Shown here: positions 24,921 to 50,380 of the stretch, piece by piece | Numbering within the stretch: position 1 is the stretch's first letter | How the letters are laid out: each line of letters begins with the position of its first letter | Assembly (NCBI RefSeq): GCF_900167465.1 | Contig: NZ_FUWR01000001.1 | Span: forward strand, 365,269 to 429,268 | From: Trichlorobacter thiogenes | GTDB taxonomy: Bacteria > Desulfobacterota > Desulfuromonadia > Geobacterales > Pseudopelobacteraceae | Direction of reading: 5' to 3' | DNA: 64,000 bases | The notes under the pieces: generated by a model | The model's input: only the letters and a program-made list of their open reading frames with translations | Database searches by the model: none | What the model was told of the DNA's origin: nothing | Made by a program: the position numbers and the translations under genes

Positions 24921-27437
24921 TCAGTGCCATGATTGGAAAAACTGTTCCATCCGGCTGAATACCTCATCCAGCGGAGCGATCAGTTGCGCTGCCTCCGGCA
25001 GGGATTTCCTGAAGCGGCTGCCGTAATTCTTGGTCACCATCCGGCTGTCCAGAATCAGCACAGCCCCACGGTCGGTCCTGCTGCGGATCAAGCGGCCAAA
25101 GCCCTGGCGCAGCTTAAGCACCGCCTGGGGCACTGACATCTCCCGGAACGGATCTCCACCCAGGCTGGTGATCCGCTCTGCCCTGGCCTGCTGGATCGGT
25201 TCAGTGGGCACCTGAAACGGCAGCCGGGCAATCACCACCAACCGTAGGGCATCCCCCTTGACATCCACCCCTTCCCAGAATGAATCAGTACCGAACAGCA
25301 CGGCATGCTGTTCCTTGCGGAAACGAGCCAGCAGCTGATGCCTGCCGCCCCCTTCACCTTGACGCAGCACGGTCAGCCCCTGATTCTCCAACGCTGACTT
25401 GAGCGCAGCATGGGTCTGACGCAGCAGGTTAAATGAGGTGAACAGTACAAAGGCACCCCCCTGCGAGATGCTGACCGCCCGCAGCACCGCATCAGCCAAA
25501 GGCTGACGGAAGCTATGGCTGGTGGGATCAGGCAGGTCACGGGGGATAGCCACCAGCGACTGTTCTGCATAATCAAAGGGAGAGGCCAGGGCCAGCTCCT
25601 GCAGCCGCTCCGGCTCCAGCAGATCAAGGCCGGTACGACGACGCAGATAGCCGAATGAGCCTCCCACGGTCAGGGTGGCTGAGGTCAGCACCACGGTGGG
25701 GATAGGATCAAGCAGTGCGATCTTGATGGTCTCAGCCACATCCAGCGGTGCCACACAGACCGTGGCCTGGCTGCCCCGGCTGGTCTGCTTGGCCTCCAGC
25801 CAGCAACAGGCCTCAGGGTCATCGGTACAGAACCAGGCCAGTTCACGGCTGATCGCCACTAACCTCTGACCAATGCCAAAGGCATCAGTCAGCAACCCGT
25901 TCACGGTCTGCATGACCGTGTCCGGCAGTTTGGCAGCAGCCCGGTCCAACGCCCCCAGACCATCAGCCAGCTCCTGCAGCTGCTCACCCAGACGCTTCAG
26001 ACGGCTCTCCAGCTCATGCCAGAACGGTGTGGCCCGCACCTCTGTGGTAATCCTGCGCTTCAGCTCACCACCACGCTGATCATCCCCTCGCTGCATCTCA
26101 CCTTGCAGGGCCTGGGCAAGCCAGTCCAGCTCACGGTCAACCGCACCTGCCAATTCATGGACCTGGGGCAGCAGGGCAGCCTCAATCAGCCCGGACAGCT
26201 CCTGATACAGGGCATCCAGCTCCTCCGGCAGTTCCTTGCCGATCTTGGTGTTCAGTACAGACAGGATACCAGCCCTGCCACCGGATGGCGCCAGTCTGGA
26301 CAGCTGCTTCATCAGGCCAGCCCGGCTGATCCGCACTGACAGGGCGCCGGTGGCAGCCTCTTCCAGATGGTGGGCCTCATCAATGATCAGGCGGCTGAAG
26401 GGGGGCAGGATGGCAACCGCATCATAGCCGCTCTCACGGCGCAGAGCGATATCAGCCAGTAGTAGGGCATGATTCACCACCAGCAGCCGTGCCGAAGCAG
26501 CATCGCGGCGGGCCTTATAGAAGAAGCAGCGGTTAAACTCCGAACAGCGGGAACGTCCACACTGGTCTGCCTCGCAGCGCAGGTCATCCCAGACCTCCCA
26601 GGCAGGGTGGAAGGAGAGGTCGCTCAGGCAACCGCTGCGGGTGGTCTCGCTCCAGGCAGCTATGGCCTGCAGCTCCTCTGAGGCGCTGTCCGGGAACAGG
26701 GACGGCTCATCCATCACCCCGCCCAGTTTACGCAGGCAGAGGTAGTTGCCCCGTCCCTTGACCAGGCAGGCGGTGAACTCTGTGGCAGCATGGCGCTGCA
26801 GCAGGGGGATATCCTTCTTGATCAGCTGTTCCTGCAGGTTGATGGTGTTGGTGGAGATCACCACCCGTTGGTCATTACGCATGGCCCAAAGCAGGGCAGG
26901 CACCAGATAGGCCAGCGACTTGCCGGTACCGGTACCGGCCTCGATCAGCGCCACGGTGTTGTCGTTAAAGGCACCCGCCACGCTAAAGGCCATCCGCACC
27001 TGTTCATCCCGTTTTTCATACCCCTTCAGATGCTTGGAGAGCATCCCGTCATTGCCAAAGACCTTTTCCAGCTCATCAAAATTGAGCCGTTCGCCAGTAC
27101 GGGGGGTGTGGGGCGCAACCACCAGATAGCAACGCTGGCAGTCATTATCGATGATGCCGAAACCAATCCCGTTGTTACCGCAAATGGAGGCCAGATCAAG
27201 ATCAGCATCAGAGGGGGTCAGTTCACCGGAGGGGTGGTTGTGTAGCACCATCTGCCCGGCCGAAGCGCGGGAAAGGATGGCTGGCACAGCGTGCCTGTTG
27301 CCACGGGCGATCGCATCGGCAGAGACCATGCAGCCGTTATCGTCCAGATCGGCAATGAAGAAGACCTCATTACCACGAGCCTGTTTGATCTCAAAACGGA
27401 TCAGGGCGCTGCAATCAGGGGAAAATTCAGCGGCCAT
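24921..27437 (-). CDS. dinG: DinG/XPD-type helicase with N-terminal JAMM (RadC-like) domain
   Basis: The 838-residue protein joins two modules. Residues about 1-130 form a JAB/MPN domain with a perfect JAMM metal motif HNHPSG-x5-SDAD (His66, His68, Ser76, Asp79), as in RadC. From about 145 on it is a superfamily 2 helicase. Its Walker A is EAGTGTGKS, the DEAH box IIDEAHHLEEAA, and a cysteine group (CLRKL, CEADQCGRSRCSEFNRC) fits the Fe-S cluster of DinG/XPD enzymes. The C-terminal helicase motifs GTDSFWEGVDVKG and QGFGRLIRS are intact. It probably unwinds DNA with 5'-3' polarity; the JAMM domain function is unknown. The start nearly abuts the ABC-F stop. Confidence 0.92.
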   Translation of the reverse strand: MAAEFSPDCSALIRFEIKQARGNEVFFIADLDDNGCMVSADAIARGNRHAVPAILSRASAGQMVLHNHPSGELTPSDADLDLASICGNNGIGFGIIDNDCQRCYLVVAPHTPRTGERLNFDELEKVFGNDGMLSKHLKGYEKRDEQVRMAFSVAGAFNDNTVALIEAGTGTGKSLAYLVPALLWAMRNDQRVVISTNTINLQEQLIKKDIPLLQRHAATEFTACLVKGRGNYLCLRKLGGVMDEPSLFPDSASEELQAIAAWSETTRSGCLSDLSFHPAWEVWDDLRCEADQCGRSRCSEFNRCFFYKARRDAASARLLVVNHALLLADIALRRESGYDAVAILPPFSRLIIDEAHHLEEAATGALSVRISRAGLMKQLSRLAPSGGRAGILSVLNTKIGKELPEELDALYQELSGLIEAALLPQVHELAGAVDRELDWLAQALQGEMQRGDDQRGGELKRRITTEVRATPFWHELESRLKRLGEQLQELADGLGALDRAAAKLPDTVMQTVNGLLTDAFGIGQRLVAISRELAWFCTDDPEACCWLEAKQTSRGSQATVCVAPLDVAETIKIALLDPIPTVVLTSATLTVGGSFGYLRRRTGLDLLEPERLQELALASPFDYAEQSLVAIPRDLPDPTSHSFRQPLADAVLRAVSISQGGAFVLFTSFNLLRQTHAALKSALENQGLTVLRQGEGGGRHQLLARFRKEQHAVLFGTDSFWEGVDVKGDALRLVVIARLPFQVPTEPIQQARAERITSLGGDPFREMSVPQAVLKLRQGFGRLIRSRTDRGAVLILDSRMVTKNYGSRFRKSLPEAAQLIAPLDEVFSRMEQFFQSWH

Positions 27438-27438
27438 C

Positions 27439-29385
27439 TCAGGCGCAGCTTTCCCACTGCGCGTACAGTTCCTCTAATTTGGTGTTCAGCGCCGTGTGCT
27501 GTTCACCGGCAGCCAGACCCTGCTCTGGATCATCAAAGAAGCCAGGCCGGTTCATCTCTGCCTCAAGCTCAGCAATCTTTTGCTCAACCGTGGCGATCTC
27601 CTTCTCAATCGCCTGCTGCTGCTTCTCCTTGGCCTGCTCTTCTTTTTTACGGCGTTTCTGCTCCTCGCGATCTTTAAGACGGTCTTCCTTGTTCTGGGGA
27701 GGCAGTTCACTTACGCCGGTTATTGCTGCTGTCGTTTCTACTGCCTGCTTAGCCGGACGGCCTGAAGTTGGAGGTGTATCCAGTTCACCGGACTTTTTTT
27801 CCAGGTAGTACTCATAATCGCCGTAATAATCGATCAGCTTGCCTTCGCCAACCTCCACAATCCGCGTTGCCAGACCGTTCACAAAGTAGCGGTCGTGGGA
27901 GACAAACACCACGGTGCCGTCAAACCCCTTCAGGGCATCCAGCAGCACCTCTTTACTGAATAGGTCCAGGTGGTTGGTTGGTTCGTCCATCAAGAGCAGG
28001 TTGGAGGGACGCAGCAGCATCTTGGCCAGGGCCAGACGGTTCCGTTCACCACCAGACAGCACCCCGACCTTTTTATGGATATCATCACCGGAAAACAGGA
28101 ACGCCCCCAGGATATCCCGCAGCTTGGGCACCATCTCGTAGGGACAGTCACTGTACAGCTCATCATAGGCAGTTCTGGTGGCATCCAGCACATTGGCCTG
28201 GTCCTGGGCAAAGTAGTCAGCCACCACATTATGGCCCGGCTTCAGGCTGCCCTCCTGGTACTCGCCACCGGCCAGCACCGCCATCAGGGTGGATTTACCA
28301 GCCCCGTTGTGTCCCACCAGAGCAACCCGCTCCCCTTTTTCAACGGTCAGATCCACCTTGTTCAGGACAACATTGCTGCCGTAGCTGCGGGTCAGCCCCT
28401 GTAGTTCCAACACAATCCGACCGCTCTTGGGGGCATCGGGGAACTGAAAGCGGATCTTCTTGCGCTCCGGCGGCAGTTCAATCCGTTCCACCTTTTCCAG
28501 CTGCTTTATCCGTGACTGCACCAGCGAGGCCTTGTTGGCTTGATAGCGGAAGCGGCGGATAAAATCTTCGGTCTTCTGCACCTCTTCATCCTGCAGCCGC
28601 TTGGCCTCCCGTAACGCAGAGACCCGTTCTTCCCGTTGGATCAGGTAGCTGGAGTAGGAGCAGTGATAGTCGGCAATGGTATGGTTCCAGACCTCGGCGA
28701 TCCGTGAGCAGACCTGATCCATAAAGAAACGGTCGTGGGAGACCAGAATCACTGAGCCAGGGTATGAACAGAGGTACTGCTCCAGCCAGTTGCGGGCCTC
28801 GATGTCCAGGTGGTTGGTCGGTTCGTCCAAGAGCAGCACATCCGGTTTTTGCAGCAGCAGGCGAGCCAGGGCGATCCGCATCTGCCAACCACCAGAGAAC
28901 TCACCACAGTCCTTGTGCCAGTTTTCCTTGCTGAAACCGAGACCCTTCAGTACGGTGCCGATCTCGGCCTCCATGGTGTAGCCGCCACGGTGGCGGAACT
29001 GTTCCTGCAGTTCGCCATAGCGTGTCAGCAGGAGATCATGCCCGGCTGCATCATGGGGCATCTGCTCCAGTTCCTGTCCAAGACGGTGCAGTTCTTCTTC
29101 CAGTGCCAGCAGTTCTGACAGGGCTGAGCGGGCCTCATGGAACAGCATCCTGCCGCTGCTGACAATACCGTCTTGAGGCAGGTAGGCGGCCCTGGCACCC
29201 TTGGCCAGCTGGATATCACCGGCACTTGACTCTTCAAGCCCGGCAATGATCTTCATCAGGGTTGATTTACCAGCCCCGTTTTCACCGATCAGGGCAACCC
29301 GCTCACCCTTACGCAGGTGCCAGGAGATGTTCGCAAACAGAACGCGACCGGAATAGTCTTTAGAGAGGTTAACAAGTTGGAGCAT
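27439..29385 (-). CDS. ABC-F family ATPase (translation factor type)
   Basis: The 648-residue protein has two ABC ATPase domains without membrane spans, each with Walker A ([18 protein letters not shown]). The signature and Walker B regions read [17 protein letters not shown]...DEPTNHLD and [16 protein letters not shown]...DEPTNHLD. The linker between domains and a C-terminal coiled coil rich in K, E and Q (about 560-640) match YheS/Uup-like ABC-F proteins, which act on the ribosome E site. It is not a transporter. Upstream is a CGCGGAT repeat. Confidence 0.93.
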
Positions 29386-38144: not shown

Positions 38145-40031
38145 CTACTGCTCTCCTCTGCCTTTCAGCATCACAGACAGTATTGCAATTGCCGCAGGAG
38201 TGACACCCTGAATCCTTGCTGCCTGGCCCAGAGTATCGGGCCTGAAGCGCTCAAGCTTTTCCCGTACCTCTGACGTTAGCCCGGAAATAGCTTTGTAGTC
38301 GAAGTCAGACGGTATCCTGGCCTCTTCCTGCTTTCGCATCCGCTCAATCTGCTCCAGCTGGCGCTCAATATAGCCCTGATACTTAACCTGTATCTCTACC
38401 TGCTCCCGCACCGCACCAGGCAATCCTGTCACCTGAGGATCAATTTCCCGTAGCTGTTGGTAGCCTATTTCCGGCCTGCGCAGTAGCCGTTCGTAACTGG
38501 CACCCTTCTGTAAATCAGCGCAGCCATGTCGCTCGCACCAGCTCTTTTCTTCGGGGTTCAGACTGAGACGGGTAACACGAACCCGCTCCAACTCCCCCTG
38601 AATCTGCTCCCGCTTGCGACAAAAAGCATCATAGGTGGCCTCGTCAACCAGGCCAACGGAATAACCGATCTCACGTAGTCTGATATCGGCATTATCTTCA
38701 CGCAGCAGCAGCCGGTATTCCGCCCGCGAGGTAAACATCCGGTACGGTTCTTTGGTGCCCAGCGTGACGAGATCATCCACCATAACCCCAATGTACGACT
38801 CATGCCGACCCAACATAATCGGCTGCCTTCCCTTAACCTTAAGGGCAGCATTGATGCCTGCCAGAATACCCTGTGCTGCCGCCTCTTCATATCCGGAGGT
38901 CCCGTTAATCTGCCCGGCATGAAAAAGATTTTTTATCAACTTGGTTTCGAGGGTAGCATGTAACTGCACCGGATTGACGTAATCGTACTCAATGCCGTAG
39001 GCCGGTCGCATGATCTCGACATTTTCAAGGCCAACCATAGATCGATAAAAAGCGATCTGGATATCAATTGGCAACGAGGTGGACATACCACTGGGATAGT
39101 ATTCTACCGTTTCAAGTCCTTCCGGCTCAATAAAAGTCTGGTGCCGTTCTTTATCGGGAAAACGGACCACCTTGTCTTCAATCGAGGGACAATAGCGGGG
39201 GCCGATCCCCTCAATTACGCCGGCATACAGTGGTGAGCGATCCAGACCACTGCGGATAATATCGTGAGTCCGCTGATTGGTGTAGGCAATATAACAGGGC
39301 ACCTGCGGCATGGTGATCCGCTCCGTACTGAAGGAGAATGGCACTGGCGGATCATCGCTGTACTGGGCCTCAAGCTTCCCAAAATCAATGGTTCTGCCAT
39401 CCAGTCGAGCCGGTGTCCCGGTCTTAAGTCGCCCCACCTCAAAGCCAAGCGACTTCAACTGATCCGAAAGCCCCAGCGAAGGCAAATCCCCTGCCCTGCC
39501 ACCAGCATAATTGATCAGACCGATATGAATCAGCCCCCGCATAAAGGTACCGGTCGTCAACACAACCGTCTTTCCAAGAAAGCGGATGCCACTGCGGGTA
39601 TCCACGCCGTGCAACTCCTCACCCTCAAGATGCAGCGCCGTAACCTCACCCTGCTTGACATGCAGATTAGCCTGTTGTTCAAGCACTCGCTTCATCCGCA
39701 AACGATAGAGCTGCTTATCAGCCTGGGCGCGACCTGCCCGAACCGCCGGTCCTTTACGCGTATTCAACACACGGAACTGAATGCCGGCCGCATCGATGTT
39801 TTTTGCCATCTCACCACCGAGGGCATCAATTTCACGCACCAGATGCCCTTTAGCCAACCCTCCGATCGAAGGGTTGCATGACATCACCGCCATGCCATCA
39901 AGACTCATGTTTAGCAGCAAGGTCAAACAGCCCATTCTTGCGGCGGCCAATGCAGCCTCGCATCCGGCATGTCCGGCCCCAACAACAATCACATCGTATT
40001 TGGTTTCATAGCTATGCATCATGGCCACCAT
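38145..40031 (-). CDS. mnmG: tRNA uridine 5-carboxymethylaminomethyl modification enzyme MnmG
   Basis: MnmG (GidA) with MnmE modifies the wobble uridine of certain tRNAs. The 628 residues carry the FAD motif DVIVVGAGHAGCEAALAAAR, CNPSIGGLAKGHLVREIDALGG, TGTFMRGLIHIG and the C-terminal helical domain. ATG 40029-40031 is the longest start. ATG 40020-40022 (four codons later) is also possible, and no strong ribosome site decides. The upstream ATG shares its last base with a parS site. Confidence 0.97.
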   Translation of the reverse strand: MVAMMHSYETKYDVIVVGAGHAGCEAALAAARMGCLTLLLNMSLDGMAVMSCNPSIGGLAKGHLVREIDALGGEMAKNIDAAGIQFRVLNTRKGPAVRAGRAQADKQLYRLRMKRVLEQQANLHVKQGEVTALHLEGEELHGVDTRSGIRFLGKTVVLTTGTFMRGLIHIGLINYAGGRAGDLPSLGLSDQLKSLGFEVGRLKTGTPARLDGRTIDFGKLEAQYSDDPPVPFSFSTERITMPQVPCYIAYTNQRTHDIIRSGLDRSPLYAGVIEGIGPRYCPSIEDKVVRFPDKERHQTFIEPEGLETVEYYPSGMSTSLPIDIQIAFYRSMVGLENVEIMRPAYGIEYDYVNPVQLHATLETKLIKNLFHAGQINGTSGYEEAAAQGILAGINAALKVKGRQPIMLGRHESYIGVMVDDLVTLGTKEPYRMFTSRAEYRLLLREDNADIRLREIGYSVGLVDEATYDAFCRKREQIQGELERVRVTRLSLNPEEKSWCERHGCADLQKGASYERLLRRPEIGYQQLREIDPQVTGLPGAVREQVEIQVKYQGYIERQLEQIERMRKQEEARIPSDFDYKAISGLTSEVREKLERFRPDTLGQAARIQGVTPAAIAILSVMLKGRGEQ

Positions 40032-40046
40032 GTTCCACGTGAAACA
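40031..40046. promoter_or_regulatory. parS chromosome-segregation site
   Basis: TGTTCCACGTGAAACA matches the consensus ParB-binding site TGTTNCACGTGAAACA at all 16 positions. It lies in the short gap between mnmE and mnmG, about 4 kb from dnaA, where parS is found in other bacteria. ParB would load here for origin segregation. Confidence 0.92.
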
Positions 40047-40049
40047 TCA

Positions 40050-41432
40050 TTACTTCCCAATACAAAATGAAGAGAAGATCAGATCAAGGAGATCATCAGT
40101 CGTGGTCTCTCCAGTAATCTCACCTAAAGCATCAAGTGCAGCCCTGACATCAAGAGCCAATAGCTCCGGGGGCAACCCAAGGGACAAATTTTCCGCAAAG
40201 GCATTAAGCGATTGTTGGGCGCGAATAAGGACATCTCGATGACGAACGTTTGAGATCACTGCGCAGTCATCGGATGAAAACGCCGAAGACTGCACAAAAT
40301 GACTATAGATCTGAGAAGAAAGCTGATCAACGCCCACTCTATTTTTGGCTGAAACGCTACAAATCCCCAATGGCGCAGCAAAAGCAGATACGTCGAGTAA
40401 CTGGGGCAGATCCGCCTTGGTCACCACCAGCAGATACGGAAGTGCTGCGAGTGACGTTACCAGGTCTGTCAATTCATTGCTCAACGGAACAGTTCCATCA
40501 ACAAGCAACAACAGTAAATCAGCCTCCGACACCTTGTCCAGCGCCCGGCGGACGCCTTCCTGCTCGACACAATCCGCGTGATGGGCACGGATACCAGCGG
40601 CATCAATGATCTTAACCGGCAACCCCTGCAGTGAAACCGTCTCCTCAATCAGATCACGAGTAGTGCCGGGCAGTGCAGAGACAATCGCACGATCAGTCCC
40701 TGACAGAGCATTTAATAAGCTGGATTTCCCGGCATTGGGAAGACCAAGCAGGAGGACCGAAACACCATCACGCAGCACCTTTCCGGTTGCAAAGGTAGCG
40801 AGCAACTGGCTGATTCCGGCAAAAACCGATGCAATTCTGGTTTCAATGACGGCAAATACAGCTGGATCAACCTCATCCTCAGGAAAGTCTATATGGGCTT
40901 CCACCAAGGCCAAGGCCTCAATAAGCGGCGCCTTCAAAGCAGTCAACGAACGGGACAGATGCCCTTCCCGCTGAGACTGAGCCAGACTTAAAGATCGTTC
41001 AGTACGGCTGGCGATCAGATCCATGACCGATTCTGCCTGTGCGAGGTCGATGCGACCATTCAGGAAAGCCCGACGTGTAAATTCACCCGGTTCAGCCAAC
41101 CTTGCACCAGCAGAAATACAGGCCTGGAGTATCGCACGAACCAGATAATAGCCACCGTGACAGTGCAGCTCAAGCACATCCTCACGGGTGTATGAGCGGG
41201 GAGCACGCATCAGAACAGCCATACCTTCATCAATCAGACTGCCGTCAGGCGGGTTAATCAGGCGGCCATAGAAAAGGCGGTGGCTCTCAAAGCCACCGCC
41301 ATTCTTCGTGCATGATCCTTTAAAAACCTTCCGGCCGATATGCTCTGCATCAGGTCCACTGACCCGGACTATCCCCACTCCTCCTGAACCAAGTGGGGTT
41401 GCTATGGCGGCAATGGTATCACGAATATACAT
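40050..41432 (-). CDS. mnmE: tRNA modification GTPase MnmE
   Basis: The 460-residue partner of MnmG. The N-terminal tetrahydrofolate-binding domain starts with [23 protein letters not shown]. The G domain has G1 [15 protein letters not shown]3 DAAGIR and G4 VTKADL, and the protein ends in the functional CIGK motif. The length is standard. It is 12 bases downstream of yidC. Confidence 0.97.
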
Positions 41433-41443
41433 GACGCACCGGA

Positions 41444-43036
41444 TTAGTCTTTAACAAGCTTATTAATATAAGCCTGCTGGCCAATGGTCAGTATGTTGTT
41501 AATAAGCCAGTACAGAACCAGGCCAGAGGGGAAGCTGAGAAACATAAAGGTAAAGATGACCGGCAGGCCCAGCATTATTTTTTGCTGCATCTCATCCATG
41601 TTGGAAGGGGTCATCTTCTGCTGAACAAACATCGTGACGCCCATAATAACCGGAGTTACGTAATAGGGGTCCTTGTCTGACAGGTCAGTGATCCAGAACA
41701 TGAACGGGGCATGACGCAGTTCTATCGAGAACATCAGCGCCTTGTAGAGAGCAAAAAAGACCGGAATCTGAACGACCATTGGAAGACATCCACCAAGCGG
41801 GTTTACCTTATGGTCACGATATAATTCCATGACAGCCCGGTTCATGGCGTCCTTGTCATTTTTATGCTTTTCCTTCAAAGCAGCCATCTTAGGCTGCAAC
41901 TTGCCCATTTCCTTCATTGATTTATAGCTCTTGTGGGTAAGCGGAAAGAAAAATATTTTAAGAATAACGGTGATGATAATGATTGCAATGCCGTAGTTGC
42001 CAACATAACGGTAAAAGAACTTAAGTGAATAGAGCATCGGCTTGGCAAGCGCAGAGAACCACCCCAAATCAAGTGACTGCTCAAGCGAACTACCCTGTGC
42101 CTTGAGAATATCGATCTCTTTAGGACCAACAAATAACTTATGTGCAACAGTCACTGCCTGACCTGGAGCCACTGAAAACGCTGGGGTTGTTATGTCAGAT
42201 TCCAGGAAACCGGTGGCACCCTTCTTCAACTCAACTGAAGCGATACTGTTGTTAACAGAAAGCAAGGCGCTCAAAAAATATTTATCATTAATGGCAGCCC
42301 ACGTTACGCCCTTGTCATACTTCTTGGTGGCCGAAGCAACGTTCTTTGGTGCGTCGGTATGCAGAGAACCATCAGCATACAGAGAAGAGCCATAGGTTTC
42401 ATAACGACCATCTTTTTGAGGCGGCTCAAACGGAGAGGTAATCAGATGCTGAAAAGAACCTGCAATGGGAGCTGCAGAGTTATTGACAAGCTGCGTATCC
42501 AAGGCAATCCCGTAACCGTTGCCATCAAAACTATACGTCTTTCGGACAACGAATCCTTGAGCATCAACATAGGTGAAAACAAGCTGCTTCTTTTCACCGG
42601 TCAAGACCTTTAGCGAACTTACGTTAGGGCTATAAGCAGCTTGAGCTGAAAGCGCAAAACCAACGCCTCGGGTTGAAAAGGAAGGTAAGGCAGGATCGGC
42701 ATTGGCAAGTAGTTTTACCTGCACCGCGCCAGGCTTGTTGGTCTCACGGAAACCTTTCAACGTCAGGCTCTTCAAAGAAGCTCCCGCAGCACCAAAGACA
42801 GCAGTATAACGCTCGGTTTCTACGGTTACATCAGCCGAAGAAACCGACTTGGGCGCAACCACCGGAGCACCAGTCGCAGTTTGAACCGTTACTGCGGGAG
42901 GAGCACCGACATTCTCGGTTTTAACTGGAACAGAAGCAGCAGGAGTGACTGCCTTTTTTTCTGGACCGTAAAAAAACGAAAACAGGTAGAAAACACCGAT
43001 GGAAAGTACTACTGCGAGTATAGTCCTTTTTTCCAT
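41444..43036 (-). CDS. yidC: membrane protein insertase YidC
   Basis: YidC inserts and folds inner-membrane proteins with or without Sec. The 530-residue protein has an N-terminal span ([19 protein letters not shown]), a large periplasmic domain (about 50-310) and five conserved C-terminal spans. The hydrophilic loop reads [20 protein letters not shown], followed by [24 protein letters not shown] lies seven bases before the ATG. It is in the canonical rpmH-rnpA-yidD-yidC order. Confidence 0.97.
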
Positions 43037-43054
43037 GAAAACACTCCGTGGTCA

Positions 43055-43267
43055 CTAGGAGACAGGATCATATCCACCCGGATGCCAGGGATGGCATCTA
43101 AGCAGACGGGATACTGTCAACAGCATACCTTTATAGGGGCCGTAACGGCGTATAGACTGCAGTGAATAATCAGAACACGTTGGGTAAAAACGACAGGAAC
43201 CTGGAAGCAGGGGGGAAATACATAACTGATATGCCCGGATAGCTGTTATAAGGATTCGTGACAGCAT
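43055..43267 (-). CDS. yidD: membrane protein insertion efficiency factor YidD
   Basis: A 70-residue protein with the strongly conserved core [34 protein letters not shown] and [16 protein letters not shown]. The start overlaps the end of rnpA by 22 bases, which is common for this gene pair. It aids YidC-dependent insertion. Confidence 0.95.
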
Positions 43268-43611
43268 GTACGTGAACCGATCTGCTGAAAAGCCCGTTGC
43301 AGCTCACTACTAAGAACCGCGACGCTCTTTTCAGCAGCCTGGCGTCGAACAATTACATTCAGATCTACGCCGGGCAACAGTGAACAATGATGACGAAAGA
43401 ACTCTCTGATATGACGCTTAAGACGGTTTCTTACTACTGCATTACCTGTCTTCCGGCTGGCTGTAATCCCCAGACGGGGATATTCATAGCCGTTCTCTCG
43501 CCAAACAACAAGAAAAGACCGTCCGGAGACTACAGTCTTACTGTCGGACAGTCTTAGGTACTCTGAACGGCTTAGCAGACGATACTGCTTAGGAAAGCTG
43601 TCGCCACTCAC
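43246..43611 (-). CDS. rnpA: ribonuclease P protein component
   Basis: RnpA is the protein subunit of RNase P for tRNA 5' maturation. The 121-residue protein shows [11 protein letters not shown] at the N-terminus and the RNR signature [17 protein letters not shown]. Start is GTG 43609-43611; the ribosome site is weak, and the start could be a few codons off. It lies 23 bases after rpmH. Confidence 0.94.
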
Positions 43612-43634
43612 CGAAACTACAGGTACAAATAAAA

Positions 43635-43784
43635 CTATTTACTTGCAATCTGAACAGAGAGACGTTTACGACCCTTGGCACGACGACGCTTAATAACCAG
43701 ACGACCGTTTTTGCTCGCCATACGTACCAGAAAACCATGAGTACGCTTACGGGATGTATTACTTGGTTGAAATGTTCTTTTCAC
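43635..43784 (-). CDS. rpmH: 50S ribosomal protein L34
   Basis: Translating the minus strand from GTG 43782-43784 gives 49 residues beginning [18 protein letters not shown] and containing [20 protein letters not shown], the L34 sequence pattern, ending at TAG 43635-43637. GGAG is seven bases upstream of the GTG. It is the first gene of the leftward origin-proximal operon. Confidence 0.97.
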
Positions 43785-43859
43785 GACGCTGCTCCGAATA
43801 CAATGTATTTATGTGGTAAAATAAAAAGGTACCACGTTTTCCTGCACACAGGAACGGAA

Positions 43860-43889
43860 CTTATAATCAAATAAACCTATATTTGTCAA
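43860..43889 (-). promoter_or_regulatory. promoter of rpmH operon
   Basis: On the minus strand a perfect TTGACA (43884-43889) is followed after 18 bases by TATAAG (43860-43865). Transcription would start about 70 bases before rpmH. Confidence 0.6.
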
Positions 43890-44015
43890 GGCTTTTGTTT
43901 TTAGGAAAACCTTGATTTGACATTGAAAAATAGTGGCGGCTCTGTTAAGGTTTCAAGCCCAAAATTAGATAAAGTTGGGTATAAATTTGGATAACTAATT
44001 TAATTTACAGCTTTT

Positions 44016-44045
44016 CATAGTTATCAACAGGTGTTGATAACTATG
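44016..44045. promoter_or_regulatory. 30-bp palindrome of two DnaA-box-like sequences upstream of dnaA
   Basis: The arms CATAGTTATCAACA (44016-44029) and TGTTGATAACTATG (44032-44045) are exact inverted copies around a central GG. Each arm contains TTATCAACA, one mismatch from the DnaA box TTATCCACA. The rest of the 380-base rpmH-dnaA gap (43785-44163) is AT-rich and holds the rpmH promoter but no gene. The palindrome is a likely DnaA autoregulation or origin element. Confidence 0.7.
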
Positions 44046-44163
44046 TTTATAACCGCATTTAGAAAACAAGTCCGTACTACTAATTTCTACAGCTGCGTTA
44101 ATGACAGCACTGCCCCGAATGGATTGGAACCAGATCAATATGCCATCTTCAAAACAGACTACC

Positions 44164-45513
44164 ATGCATACAATCTGGAATCAGACTGCAACAAATCTGG
44201 AAAAAGTTATATCTCCTCAAAATTATGCAAACTGGATTCAGCCTATTCAGTTCAGTCACGCTGATACTCAATCAATCTATCTCAGTGTTCCTAATCTGTT
44301 TTTTAAAGAATGGCTGGATGATAACTACGTTGACCTGATCAATAGCGCACTATCGGTTACCGCAGACAAAAATATGCTGGTAAGCTTCATTGTGCAGGAA
44401 AAAGATCCTGAAACACTTCCTGAGGAACCACAAGAGGCACCTCTGGTTAAACAGACCACTACTAATCAGCAAAAAGAAACTCCTCTACACAAGGAAACTC
44501 CAACCCTGAACCCTCGTTATACCTTTGATCAGTTTGTGAGTGGAGTTGGAAACCAGTTTGCCCATGCCGCAGCTATGGCAGTAGCAAATAACCCGGCGAT
44601 AACCTATAATCCGCTCTTCATTTACGGAGGTGTCGGCCTCGGTAAAAGTCACTTGTTAAATGCAGTTGGCCACAAAATTATGAGTGATAATAACAACACC
44701 AGGGTATGCTACTGCTCAGCTGAAAAATTTATGCATGACATGGTAAATTGCATAAAATTGAATAAAATGGATGAATTCAGAGAACGATTTCGTTCAATAG
44801 ATGTACTTCTAATTGATGACATCCAGTTTATTGCCCGAAAAGAACGTACGCAGGTTGAATTTTTTCATACCTTTAATGCGCTTTATGAAGCAGGTAAACA
44901 AATCATCATCACATCCGATAAATTCCCCCGTGAAATAGACCTGGAAGACAGGTTACGTTCACGGTTTGAATGGGGGCTTATTGCCGATATTCAAGCACCT
45001 GATCTTGAAACCAAGATAGCAATTCTCAAGAAAAAGGCTGATAGCAATAAAATACAGTTGCCTGATGATGTTGCCTACTTTCTCGCATCAAGCGACACCC
45101 GCAATATCAGAGAGCTTGAAGGTATGTTAATACGACTGGGTGCTTACAGCAGCCTGCAACATATTCCAATCACACTGACCATGGCAAAAAACAACCTGAA
45201 AGATATCCTGGTTGATAAACGGAAAGAGATCACGGTTGAACTAATCCAGAAAACCGTTGCAGATCATTTTGGCCTTAAAGTGGCGGATCTAAAATCTGAA
45301 AAACGTCTGAAGGCCTTTGTTCAGGCCCGCCAGATTGCCATCTGGCTTTGCCGCGACATGACGACTGCCTCGTATCCTGATATTGGTTCACGATTTGGTG
45401 GGAAAGATCACTCAACCGTTATTCATGCTACTAAAAAGATAGAAAAATTACTGACTGAAGATCCTAACCTATTAAAAACAATGGACGAATTAAAAGAGAT
45501 CATACTTCACTAA
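44164..45513 (+). CDS. dnaA: chromosomal replication initiator protein DnaA
   Basis: DnaA opens the origin. From ATG 44164 the protein has 449 residues: N-terminal domain (HTIWNQTATNLEKVISPQNY), a variable Q/T/E-rich linker, and an AAA+ core with Walker A GGVGLGKSHLLNA near residue 154 and Walker B VLLIDDIQFI. The C-terminal DNA-binding signature is CRDMTTASYPDIGSRFGGKD, followed by HSTVIHA. Upstream in-frame ATGs at 44140 and 44101 are possible starts. None has a good ribosome site, and I chose 44164 by similarity to related DnaA N-termini. Confidence 0.96.
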   Translation: MHTIWNQTATNLEKVISPQNYANWIQPIQFSHADTQSIYLSVPNLFFKEWLDDNYVDLINSALSVTADKNMLVSFIVQEKDPETLPEEPQEAPLVKQTTTNQQKETPLHKETPTLNPRYTFDQFVSGVGNQFAHAAAMAVANNPAITYNPLFIYGGVGLGKSHLLNAVGHKIMSDNNNTRVCYCSAEKFMHDMVNCIKLNKMDEFRERFRSIDVLLIDDIQFIARKERTQVEFFHTFNALYEAGKQIIITSDKFPREIDLEDRLRSRFEWGLIADIQAPDLETKIAILKKKADSNKIQLPDDVAYFLASSDTRNIRELEGMLIRLGAYSSLQHIPITLTMAKNNLKDILVDKRKEITVELIQKTVADHFGLKVADLKSEKRLKAFVQARQIAIWLCRDMTTASYPDIGSRFGGKDHSTVIHATKKIEKLLTEDPNLLKTMDELKEIILH

Positions 45514-45742
45514 AAGTTGTTACCACTACCTGTGTATACAACTGTTGATAGCTGTGGGGAAAATCATACCTGTGCATAAGTGACCTAAAGTGTGGTCTGT
45601 AATCAACAACCAAGATTAACGATAAAATAAGTTATTTTAGTAGGTTAAAAGTTATACACGCTTTCCACAGGACTAATAATAAATATAAAGACTTTAAAGA
45701 TTTAAATACTACTTATTGAAATACAAAACCAAGGAGTCTGAC
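45514..45742. other. putative oriC: DnaA-box cluster and AT-rich unwinding region
   Basis: This dnaA-dnaN gap has several DnaA-box-like 9-mers: TGTGCATAA (45571-45579, inverse of TTATGCACA), TTATACACG (45652-45660), TGTGTATAC (45531-45539), TGTGGGGAA (45553-45561) and TTTCCACAG (45662-45670). A 50-base AT-rich tract (45671-45720) follows. Strand switch of genes on either side and the neighbouring parS support an origin here. The exact unwinding site is inferred. Confidence 0.75.
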
Positions 45743-46861
45743 ATGAACTTCAAAATCGACAGAGACACCTTTTTAAAGGCGTTGCAAAAAGTGCAGGGAA
45801 TTGTCGAAAAGCGGACCTCAATGCCGATTCTATCCAATATTTTGATTGAAGCTCAAGGGGACTCACTTGAGATACTTGCCACGGATCTGGAAGTAGGTCT
45901 CAAAGGTAGCTATCCAGCTAAAGTGGAAACAGATGGCCGAATTACGGTTGGTGCAAAAAAACTGTATGAAATAGTAAAAGAGCTGCCAAATCAAGAAATT
46001 ACCTTTATTTCAAAAGAGAATGACTGGGTAGAAATTACCTGCGGCAAGGTTAAGTTTAATATTGTTGGATTACCGTCTGATGAATTTCCTGCTGTTGCGT
46101 CGGTAAAGGATGCACAACTGCTTGAACTTGAAGCGTCATTATTAAGAAAAATGATCGAAAAAACATCCTATGCCATCTGCAATGACGAAACAAAATATAA
46201 CCTGAATGGTATCTTTACCAGGGTTGAACAGACTGAAAACGGTCAGGTTTTAAAGATGGTTGCAACCGATGGACACCGCTTGTCAATTGCGTCAGGCGCC
46301 TTTAGTGGAACAGCTAATCCTGAGTTGCTAAAAGGGGTTATCCTTCCTAAAAAAGGTGTCTACGAGATTAAAAAAATTACTGATGAAGGTGACGGGCTGC
46401 TGCAATTCGGTTTTGTTGATAGCAGTGCCGTACTTAAAAAAGGTGATACCACACTGGTTATGCGGCTGGTAGATGGAGAGTTTCCTGATTACACACGGGT
46501 TATCCCTGCAGCAAATGATCAGATTGTAAAGGCACCAAGAGAAGAGCTGATCCATGCGGTACGGCGGATGGCTATCCTTTCCAGTGAAAAATTTAAGGGA
46601 ATCATGCTGGAGATTGAAGGAAACGGAGTAAAAATATCATCAAGCAATCCAGAGCTGGGTGATGCCATGGAAGAACTGGATGTGCAGTATGATGGCACCC
46701 CGTTCTCAGTTCGTTTTAATGCACGTTATCTGCTTGATGTGCTGATGGTGGCAGAGAGTCAACATGTGTTAATGAAATTTAAAAATGAGCTGTCGCCTTC
46801 AATTGTAACGCCAGATTCAGATGATGAACTTCTGGCGGTTATCATGCCAATGAGGCTCTAG
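45743..46861 (+). CDS. dnaN: DNA polymerase III beta sliding clamp
   Basis: DnaN tethers the replicative polymerase to DNA. The 372-residue protein from ATG 45743 (AAGGAG six bases upstream) begins NFKIDRDTFLKALQKVQGIV and has KRTSMPILSNILIEA. Three clamp domains follow, ending ELLAVIMPMRL with the conserved P-M-R-L terminus. An in-frame ATG at 45716 lies in the origin region and lacks a ribosome site. Confidence 0.97.
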   Translation: MNFKIDRDTFLKALQKVQGIVEKRTSMPILSNILIEAQGDSLEILATDLEVGLKGSYPAKVETDGRITVGAKKLYEIVKELPNQEITFISKENDWVEITCGKVKFNIVGLPSDEFPAVASVKDAQLLELEASLLRKMIEKTSYAICNDETKYNLNGIFTRVEQTENGQVLKMVATDGHRLSIASGAFSGTANPELLKGVILPKKGVYEIKKITDEGDGLLQFGFVDSSAVLKKGDTTLVMRLVDGEFPDYTRVIPAANDQIVKAPREELIHAVRRMAILSSEKFKGIMLEIEGNGVKISSSNPELGDAMEELDVQYDGTPFSVRFNARYLLDVLMVAESQHVLMKFKNELSPSIVTPDSDDELLAVIMPMRL

Positions 46862-46868
46862 TACAGAC

Positions 46869-50380
<3,512 letters not shown>

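Follow-up and report, generated by a model that had tools for sequence, protein, structure and literature searches.

A RadC-like JAMM domain joined to a YoaA/DinG-type Fe-S helicase in Trichlorobacter thiogenes and its relatives

The JAB-DinG gene and its domains

The stretch of Trichlorobacter thiogenes DNA analysed here (64,000 nucleotides of contig NZ_FUWR01000001.1, hereafter the window) carries at 24921..27437, on the minus strand, a single unbroken frame of 838 amino acids (aa) whose product we call JAB-DinG (RadC-like DinG). Its JAB/JAMM domain occupies residues 11-112 (27102..27407, minus strand), and the Pfam RadC profile (PF04002) matches residues 12-83 with 28.3 bits (cut-off 22.1, E-value 1.8e-6), a partial match that covers profile positions 10-88 of 121. 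Within this domain lies HNHPSGELTPSDAD (residues 66-79; 27201..27242, minus strand), a perfect HxH-x7-S-x2-D motif formed by H66, H68, S76 and D79, and the JAMM glutamate upstream of it is E24 (27366..27368, minus strand). Residues 139-838 (24924..27023, minus strand) form a YoaA/DinG-type helicase of the XPD family, as judged from profile matches and from fold matches to Escherichia coli DinG (6fws/6fwr). This part includes the Walker A sequence EAGTGTGKS (residues 166-174; 26916..26942), with E166, A167, G170, G172 and K173 invariant among relatives, the Fe-S cluster cysteines C234, C293, C298 and C304 (26526..26738), a DEAH box (residues 353-356; 26370..26381) with D353 and E354 invariant, all on the minus strand, and a Pfam Helicase_C_2 match on residues 652-815 (E-value 1.2e-49). 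Among NCBIfam models, the helicase part is best matched by YoaA (NF053712; 577.9 bits, below the cut-off of 680), followed by DinG models. JAB-DinG thus has the four cluster cysteines and helicase motifs of XPD-family Fe-S helicases and, by sequence and predicted structure, the E-Xn-H-x-H-x7-S-x2-D residues and the JAB/MPN fold of JAMM/MPN+ enzymes. We confirm that the fusion is genuine, with an N-terminal JAB/JAMM domain and a YoaA/DinG-type Fe-S helicase in one intact gene; a sequence-only reading of this DNA had proposed both the perfect motif and its junction to a full Fe-S helicase.

The fusion architecture is not new, having been in print since 2017 and again in 2025. RadC fusions to DinG/RAD3-like helicases were noted, and used as an argument, in PMC5512222, and section 3.8 of Cheng 2025 (PMC11981726) names the fusion RadC-like DinG and describes an N-terminal RadC-like domain with conserved E, H, H and D and a C-terminal helix, all of which the window protein has. 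In the open-access literature we found no report testing the function of the RadC-like domain on DinG, and no paper treating RadC, DinG and Fusobacterium together.

Conservation of the fusion

A scan of contigs for relatives gave 592 confirmed stretches, of which the best 80 were kept. Thirteen of these loci were left out of the alignment (five cut at contig edges and lacking the N-terminus, and eight DinG proteins whose sequences showed no JAMM motif), and conservation was assessed in the window protein and the 67 remaining relatives (68 rows), including L011, whose JAB part is whole and whose helicase lies in two frames. All five JAMM residues (E24, H66, H68, S76 and D79) are the same in each of the 68 rows, and chance is therefore excluded as the source of the JAMM motif. 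The Fe-S cysteines C234, C293, C298 and C304 are kept in 66, 66, 68 and 68 of the 68 rows, respectively; a serine replaces C234 in loci L041 and L052 and C293 in L049 and L051.

The ratio of nonsynonymous to synonymous substitution rates (dN/dS) in eight close pairs spans 0.03-0.18 in the JAB part and 0.04-0.21 in the helicase, and as estimated from these pairs purifying selection on the two parts is similar. Pairwise identities of the JAB and helicase parts are also correlated (Pearson 0.75, Spearman 0.51; 1176 pairs, uncontrolled). The sequence-only reading had named a frameshift artefact joining two genes as the alternative to a genuine fusion. Broken frames do occur in a few relatives (L011, L169 and L297) and none was found for the window, whereas the architecture recurs in all 67 relatives. 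Because the same single frame is found in independent assemblies, whose record titles span several phyla, and because dN/dS is similar in both parts, an artefact of frameshift or annotation is excluded; we regard this explanation as already refuted and almost certainly wrong.

A stand-alone domain of the JAB-DinG type was not seen among the hits followed up, the remaining short frames being unchecked. Twenty-five of the 27 JAB hits in genomes sampled across the phylum of the window lie within frames of at least 845 aa; in the other two the contig ends about 200 bases past the hit (genome G259), or the hit lies near the contig start in a 517-aa frame running that way (G216). A few frames were shorter in the samples of the window's class and of Gemmatimonadota, and among four short or divergent cases fetched, L296 and L298 lie at contig ends, L297 has its helicase in a second frame and L295 is complete.

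The N-terminal domain compared with RadC

To compare the domain with RadC, 49 intact JAB-DinG domains, that of the window included, were aligned with 18 fetched RadC domains. The JAB fold and the EXnHxHx7Sx2D residues are common to RadC (PF04002; 2qlc) and JAB-DinG. In contrast, at the His of the DH or EH pair found in all 18 RadC rows (DH in 17, EH in one), JAB-DinG has Asn in 49 of 49 rows, a residue retained in 67 of the 68 rows of the larger alignment. The residues PRE before the motif, which are merely typical of RadC (12 of 18 rows), occur in none of the 49 JAB-DinG rows, and the segment preceding the motif is about 8 residues shorter in JAB-DinG than in RadC. Both NCBIfam RadC models were missed (24.3 against 180 bits and 20.1 against 133.85 bits). 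A profile built for the JAB-DinG domain (A1) gave 103-153 bits for JAB-DinG domains and at most 37 for the RadC-sized frames listed for the phylum sample, with an intermediate 60.6 bits for genome G402. Judged by these residues and profiles, the domain is RadC-like rather than RadC, a point on which the sequence-only reading is to be corrected. The JAMM motif is written EXnHS/THX7SXXD in PMC300881, and its middle residue is Asn in JAB-DinG instead.

RadC itself is present beside JAB-DinG. Two full RadC domains are encoded elsewhere in the genome of the window, and a separate RadC match over the cut-off was found in 10 of 10 checked carrier genomes of other groups, that in G301 being partial. 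In two genomes, G178 (contig 44, L098) and G259 (contig 106, L096), a separate RadC match lies at most about 4 kb from the JAB-DinG domain.

Predicted structure

An AlphaFold2 model of the whole chain, built on 35 aligned sequences, has a predicted local distance difference test score (pLDDT) of 88.5, a predicted template modelling score of 0.81 and a DinG fold, and the JAB domain modelled alone has a JAB fold with a pLDDT of 96. The whole model matches E. coli DinG 6fws/6fwr with Z 28.9/27.9 and Staphylococcus aureus DinG with Z 25.9, and these matches begin at residue 115 or 121 of the model and extend almost to its C-terminus. A helix at residues 823-837, at the C-terminus, resembles the one described for YoaA MD2, a comparison made without superposition on YoaA. 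Both this extra helix and the best helicase model are thus shared with E. coli YoaA, which differs in lacking the JAB domain and in pairing with HolC, whereas JAB-DinG falls below the NF053712 cut-off and the genome of the window has no HolC. ExoDinG (DnaQ-DinG; S. aureus DinG 9ii8/8zef, fold Z 25.9) has, like JAB-DinG, a DinG helicase with an N-terminal enzyme domain, but an exonuclease stands where JAB-DinG has JAMM.

The best Foldseek match of the JAB model is RadC 2qlc (E-value 1.4e-5). In VIA-align, BubCD scores highest (Z 10.2; 2.4 Å over 99 residues), followed by PfJAMM1 (9.0; 2.7 Å, 92 residues), Caldiarchaeum Rpn11 (9.0; 2.7 Å, 97 residues) and RadC 2qlc (8.8; 2.8 Å, 91 residues), the last three being tied in score. 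Since JAB shares its fold with deaminases (PMC5512222), the zinc site could instead act on a base or nucleotide met during translocation, by deaminase-like chemistry, and Foldseek does list a double-stranded DNA deaminase (E-value 0.055) and the cytidine deaminase CDD1 (E-value 0.4). Neither match is significant and the site has the JAMM ligand set, and we consider this reading very unlikely.

The structural comparison bears equally on a proposal that the domain is a nuclease. PMC5512222 bases this view on the domain's positional equivalence with other nucleases, also in DinG/RAD3-like fusions, and the view is cited for the RadC clade in PMC3482391; in addition, the Peptococcaceae relative L078 has, as read by eye, a DnaQ-like exonuclease-type stretch at the same place. 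However, JAB-DinG keeps the full JAMM set, serine included, its listed fold neighbours are JAMM/MPN proteins, and the single nuclease in the 50 listed Foldseek rows, a splicing endonuclease, is insignificant (E-value 0.36). We know of no precedent for a one-zinc JAMM phosphodiesterase. Section 3.8 of Cheng 2025 (PMC11981726) reports likewise that DALI gives metalloproteases and no nucleases for the RadC-like domain. Taken together, a nuclease seems to us an unlikely reading, though one to be taken seriously.

Distribution and genomic role

Scored by profile, the window's class has the domain in 95 of 98 genomes (the degenerate G402 being among the 95) and Gemmatimonadota in 74 of 101; across the phylum it was found in 27 of 297 sampled genomes, a count that leaves out degenerate forms missed by the profile. 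Sixty Fusobacteriota genomes read gene by gene comprised 47 with an intact domain, 5 with a degenerate one (one in a broken frame) and 8 without it; the HxH..S..D residues are found in 47 of the 60, and the E motif in 45 of the 45 intact cases fetched by genome. Further loci are in records titled Planctomycetota, Sumerlaeota, Auribacterota, Spirochaetota, Acidobacteria and Bacillota, all metagenome-assembled genomes by title.

JAB-DinG is the only Helicase_C_2 protein in the genome of the window. Among the 27 carriers of the phylum sample, a single Helicase_C_2 match passes the cut-off in 26, and in 25 of these it is the JAB-DinG gene itself; of the other two, G259 has its match on another contig and G216 has none. 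A DinG-type helicase match was found in 17 of 40 genomes without a JAB-DinG hit, one of which is the degenerate G056. Because 25 of 27 carriers have no other DinG-family helicase, gene content suggests that JAB-DinG serves its hosts as their housekeeping DinG/YoaA and is not an accessory gene. A role in mobile elements or defence was considered and rejected, the PADLOC hits being mainly to CRISPR type IV DinG models, with two weak PDC-S28 hits, and on the helicase part only. Among plasmids, the N-terminus was covered by one of the best 15 of 1121 records, a Fusobacterium record of 2.1 Mb, and among phages by none of the best 15 of 44; the best 80 of 226 virus loci had no helicase match in the DNA examined and JAB scores of at most 43 bits.

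Degenerate forms and evolution

Loss of the JAMM residues in most orthologues, which the sequence-only reading had named as refuting its proposal, was not found: most orthologues keep them, though part or all of the set, E24 included, is gone in at least four lineages. In Fusobacterium vincentii (L085, 4001-6415) and the related L141 and L145, HNHPSG is replaced by RTTKPK, RTTKPQ or RVAKGN, and in a second Fusobacterial clade (L160, L162 and L169) the same stretch reads R-V/I-YP; the helicase frame of L169 is broken. In genome G056 (L103) the stretch is RVRPGS. G402 (L295), which belongs to the window's class, keeps HNHP and has, as read by eye, Ala for E24, Thr for S76 and Glu for D79. H66 is replaced by Arg in 7 of these 8 loci, that is, in three of the four lineages. 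A profile made from intact domains only still finds the six degenerate domains of L085, L141, L145, L160, L162 and L103 (E-values 1e-7 to 1.7e-20, against 1.8 for the best of 3000 shuffles); L169 was left out of this test. None of 20 N-terminal stretches of JAB-less proteins, several of them shorter than 40 aa, appeared in the best 40 rows of the same test.

The helicase tree, from which L295 and L169 are absent, forces three separate changes to the degenerate state, and L295, lying in the window's class and outside the other three lineages, would be a fourth. Counted in this way, the JAB domain persists with a damaged active site in no fewer than four lineages. The degenerate helicases nest within the JAB-bearing Fusobacterial clade, as do L139 and L149, Fusobacterial DinG proteins of about 700 aa with no N-terminal domain, which are sister to the F. 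vincentii pseudo-JAB clade; the short Fusobacterial helicases L181, L186, L190 and L191 branch beside the JAB-bearing clade. Because JAB-less and degenerate rows nest in a JAB-bearing clade in Fusobacteriota, loss of the domain is firm there, and there only. RadC was considered as a partner lost together with JAB and rejected, a separate RadC being present in 59 of 60 Fusobacteriota, degenerate and JAB-less genomes included.

A single clade of JAB-bearing and degenerate proteins is rejected with the Fusobacterial JAB-less rows in the set (51 rows, LG+G4, p 8e-7) but is not rejected without them (47 rows, mixture model, approximately unbiased (AU) test, p 0.68), the reduced row sets having been picked after the first tree was seen. 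One fusion therefore suffices, a single JAB clade being compatible with the data without those rows. For YoaA, loss of the domain and its original absence both fit these trees as rooted here.

Section 3.8 of PMC11981726 names no degenerate forms, whereas inactive-looking JAB forms were found here. More broadly, we did not find degenerate forms, HolC counter-examples or prevalence figures in the consulted sections of PMC5512222 and PMC11981726, and we make no claim that these are unpublished. Retained by most of the sampled members of whole groups, the domain has nevertheless been damaged several times in nature, and the degenerate orthologues are natural controls for asking what the RadC-like JAMM clade does.

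HolC and a possible docking role

E. coli YoaA pairs with HolC, and the presence of HolC in a genome is a criterion for YoaA in Cheng 2025 (PMC11981726), where HolC is stated to be absent from RadC-like DinG carriers. The genome of the window agrees with this, with 0 HolC matches. However, full-length HolC matches of 95-112 bits (cut-off 25.4) were found in 5 of the 27 carriers of the phylum sample (G126, G178, G202, G246 and G287), and HolC is present in 6 of 40 non-carrier genomes. The reported absence is therefore not general among carriers, and this co-occurrence corrects the printed generalisation. Comparison by eye of the C-terminal tails of carriers with and without HolC gave nothing decisive.

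These data bear on the possibility that the domain is chiefly a docking or regulatory element, for example one that replaces recruitment through HolC-SSB, with a metal site that is structural or a relict. The lack of HolC in the genome of the window is consistent with it, as is the retention of the domain with a damaged site in two Fusobacteriota lineages, G056 and G402, and the complete loss of JAB in L139 and L149 beside one degenerate clade. On the other side, the five JAMM residues are invariant in all 68 aligned rows, and HolC in 5 of 27 JAB-DinG genomes argues that the domain is no simple HolC substitute. We consider a chiefly docking or regulatory role improbable but, like a nuclease, to be taken seriously.

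Proposed function of the JAMM domain

RadC is widespread in bacteria and has no agreed biochemistry. The remark in the sequence-only reading that RadC-type domains lack a settled biochemical role was right. The tie of the RadC-like domain to a helicase supplies a substrate context, namely single-stranded DNA (ssDNA) and whatever blocks it. The further suggestion of that reading, processing of DNA or of protein-DNA conjugates, spans two hypotheses not yet told apart, a protease and the nuclease of PMC5512222.

The reading that we favour, tentatively, is the protease. We infer that the helicase pushes its way along ssDNA and that the JAMM domain breaks, by hydrolysis, an amide bond of whatever blocking or adducted protein it meets. 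The motor would load on ssDNA at gaps or stalled forks and drive into obstacles, in the 5'-3' direction typical of its family. Amide hydrolysis is the chemistry expected where a JAB fold holds an E/HxH/S/D zinc site; in JAB-DinG the residue set and, on the predicted model, the fold are those of zinc amide hydrolases. The site might then cut the protein that is met, be it a roadblock that is crosslinked or tightly bound or a replication or repair partner that carries a modification. We propose this because the chemistry of such a zinc site is amide hydrolysis and because the motor is of the FANCJ/XPD kind, for which coupling to a protease has a precedent: FANCJ translocates into a crosslinked protein and unfolds it, and SPRTN then cuts it (PMC12279946, citing Yaneva 2023). 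One chain would do the work that in animals is done by two proteins, the XPD-family Fe-S helicase FANCJ and the metalloprotease SPRTN, as a functional analogue only and with no homology claimed for the proteases. SPRTN is not known to be a JAMM enzyme.

Several points weigh against a motor-driven protease. Both its activity and its substrate are inferred from sequence and a predicted model. RadC-clade JABs have been argued to be nucleases and to have no groove that would take a ubiquitin tail (PMC5512222, PMC3482391), the other N-terminal DinG fusions, ExoDinG and EndoDinG, are nucleases (PMC11981726), and E. coli radC mutants, as cited in Cheng 2025 (PMC11981726), have normal sensitivity to DNA damage. 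Genes neighbouring the 80 loci, many of which are cut at a contig edge, were clustered; none of the 30 clusters inspected is general, and they thus give no pointer to a substrate. The damaged active sites of at least four lineages count here as well: catalysis appears from these sequences not to be indispensable, since the domain persists in some lineages that have lost its active site and has been dropped by others.

A bolder version, which we offer as speculation and hold to be quite improbable as a whole, joins mechanism and history. In it, a one-chain motor-protease that clears proteins from ssDNA, a bacterial counterpart of FANCJ and SPRTN, would have arisen by a single old fusion, and the JAB-less YoaA-type helicases, E. 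coli YoaA included, would descend from JAB-bearing ancestors by way of an active JAB, a pseudo-JAB and finally no JAB.

Neighbouring genes and other features of the window

Upstream of JAB-DinG, on the same strand, lies a gene for an ABC-F ATPase (27439..29385, minus strand), whose stop is 1 bp from the JAB-DinG start, and the two genes are probably co-transcribed in the window. The ABC-F gene stands directly upstream only in the window, L005 and L006 among the relatives' loci, several of which are cut at contig edges; an operon or partner role was accordingly rejected, the linkage being local and not conserved. Outside Geobacteraceae, the widest neighbours are histidine kinase and response regulator families. 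Other clusters, with identities read by eye, are adenosylhomocysteinase-like (7 loci: five relatives and two Peptococcaceae without JAB), phosphoglycerate-mutase-like (6 loci: four relatives and two Fusobacterial) and M16 peptidase-like (5 Geobacteraceae loci and L057). The widest clusters are taken for chance or lineage signals.

Elsewhere in the window (38145-50380), the cumulative GC-skew minimum and a dip in GC content at 44-46 kb lie between mnmG-mnmE and dnaA-dnaN-recF-gyrB, and the window probably contains the chromosomal replication origin region.

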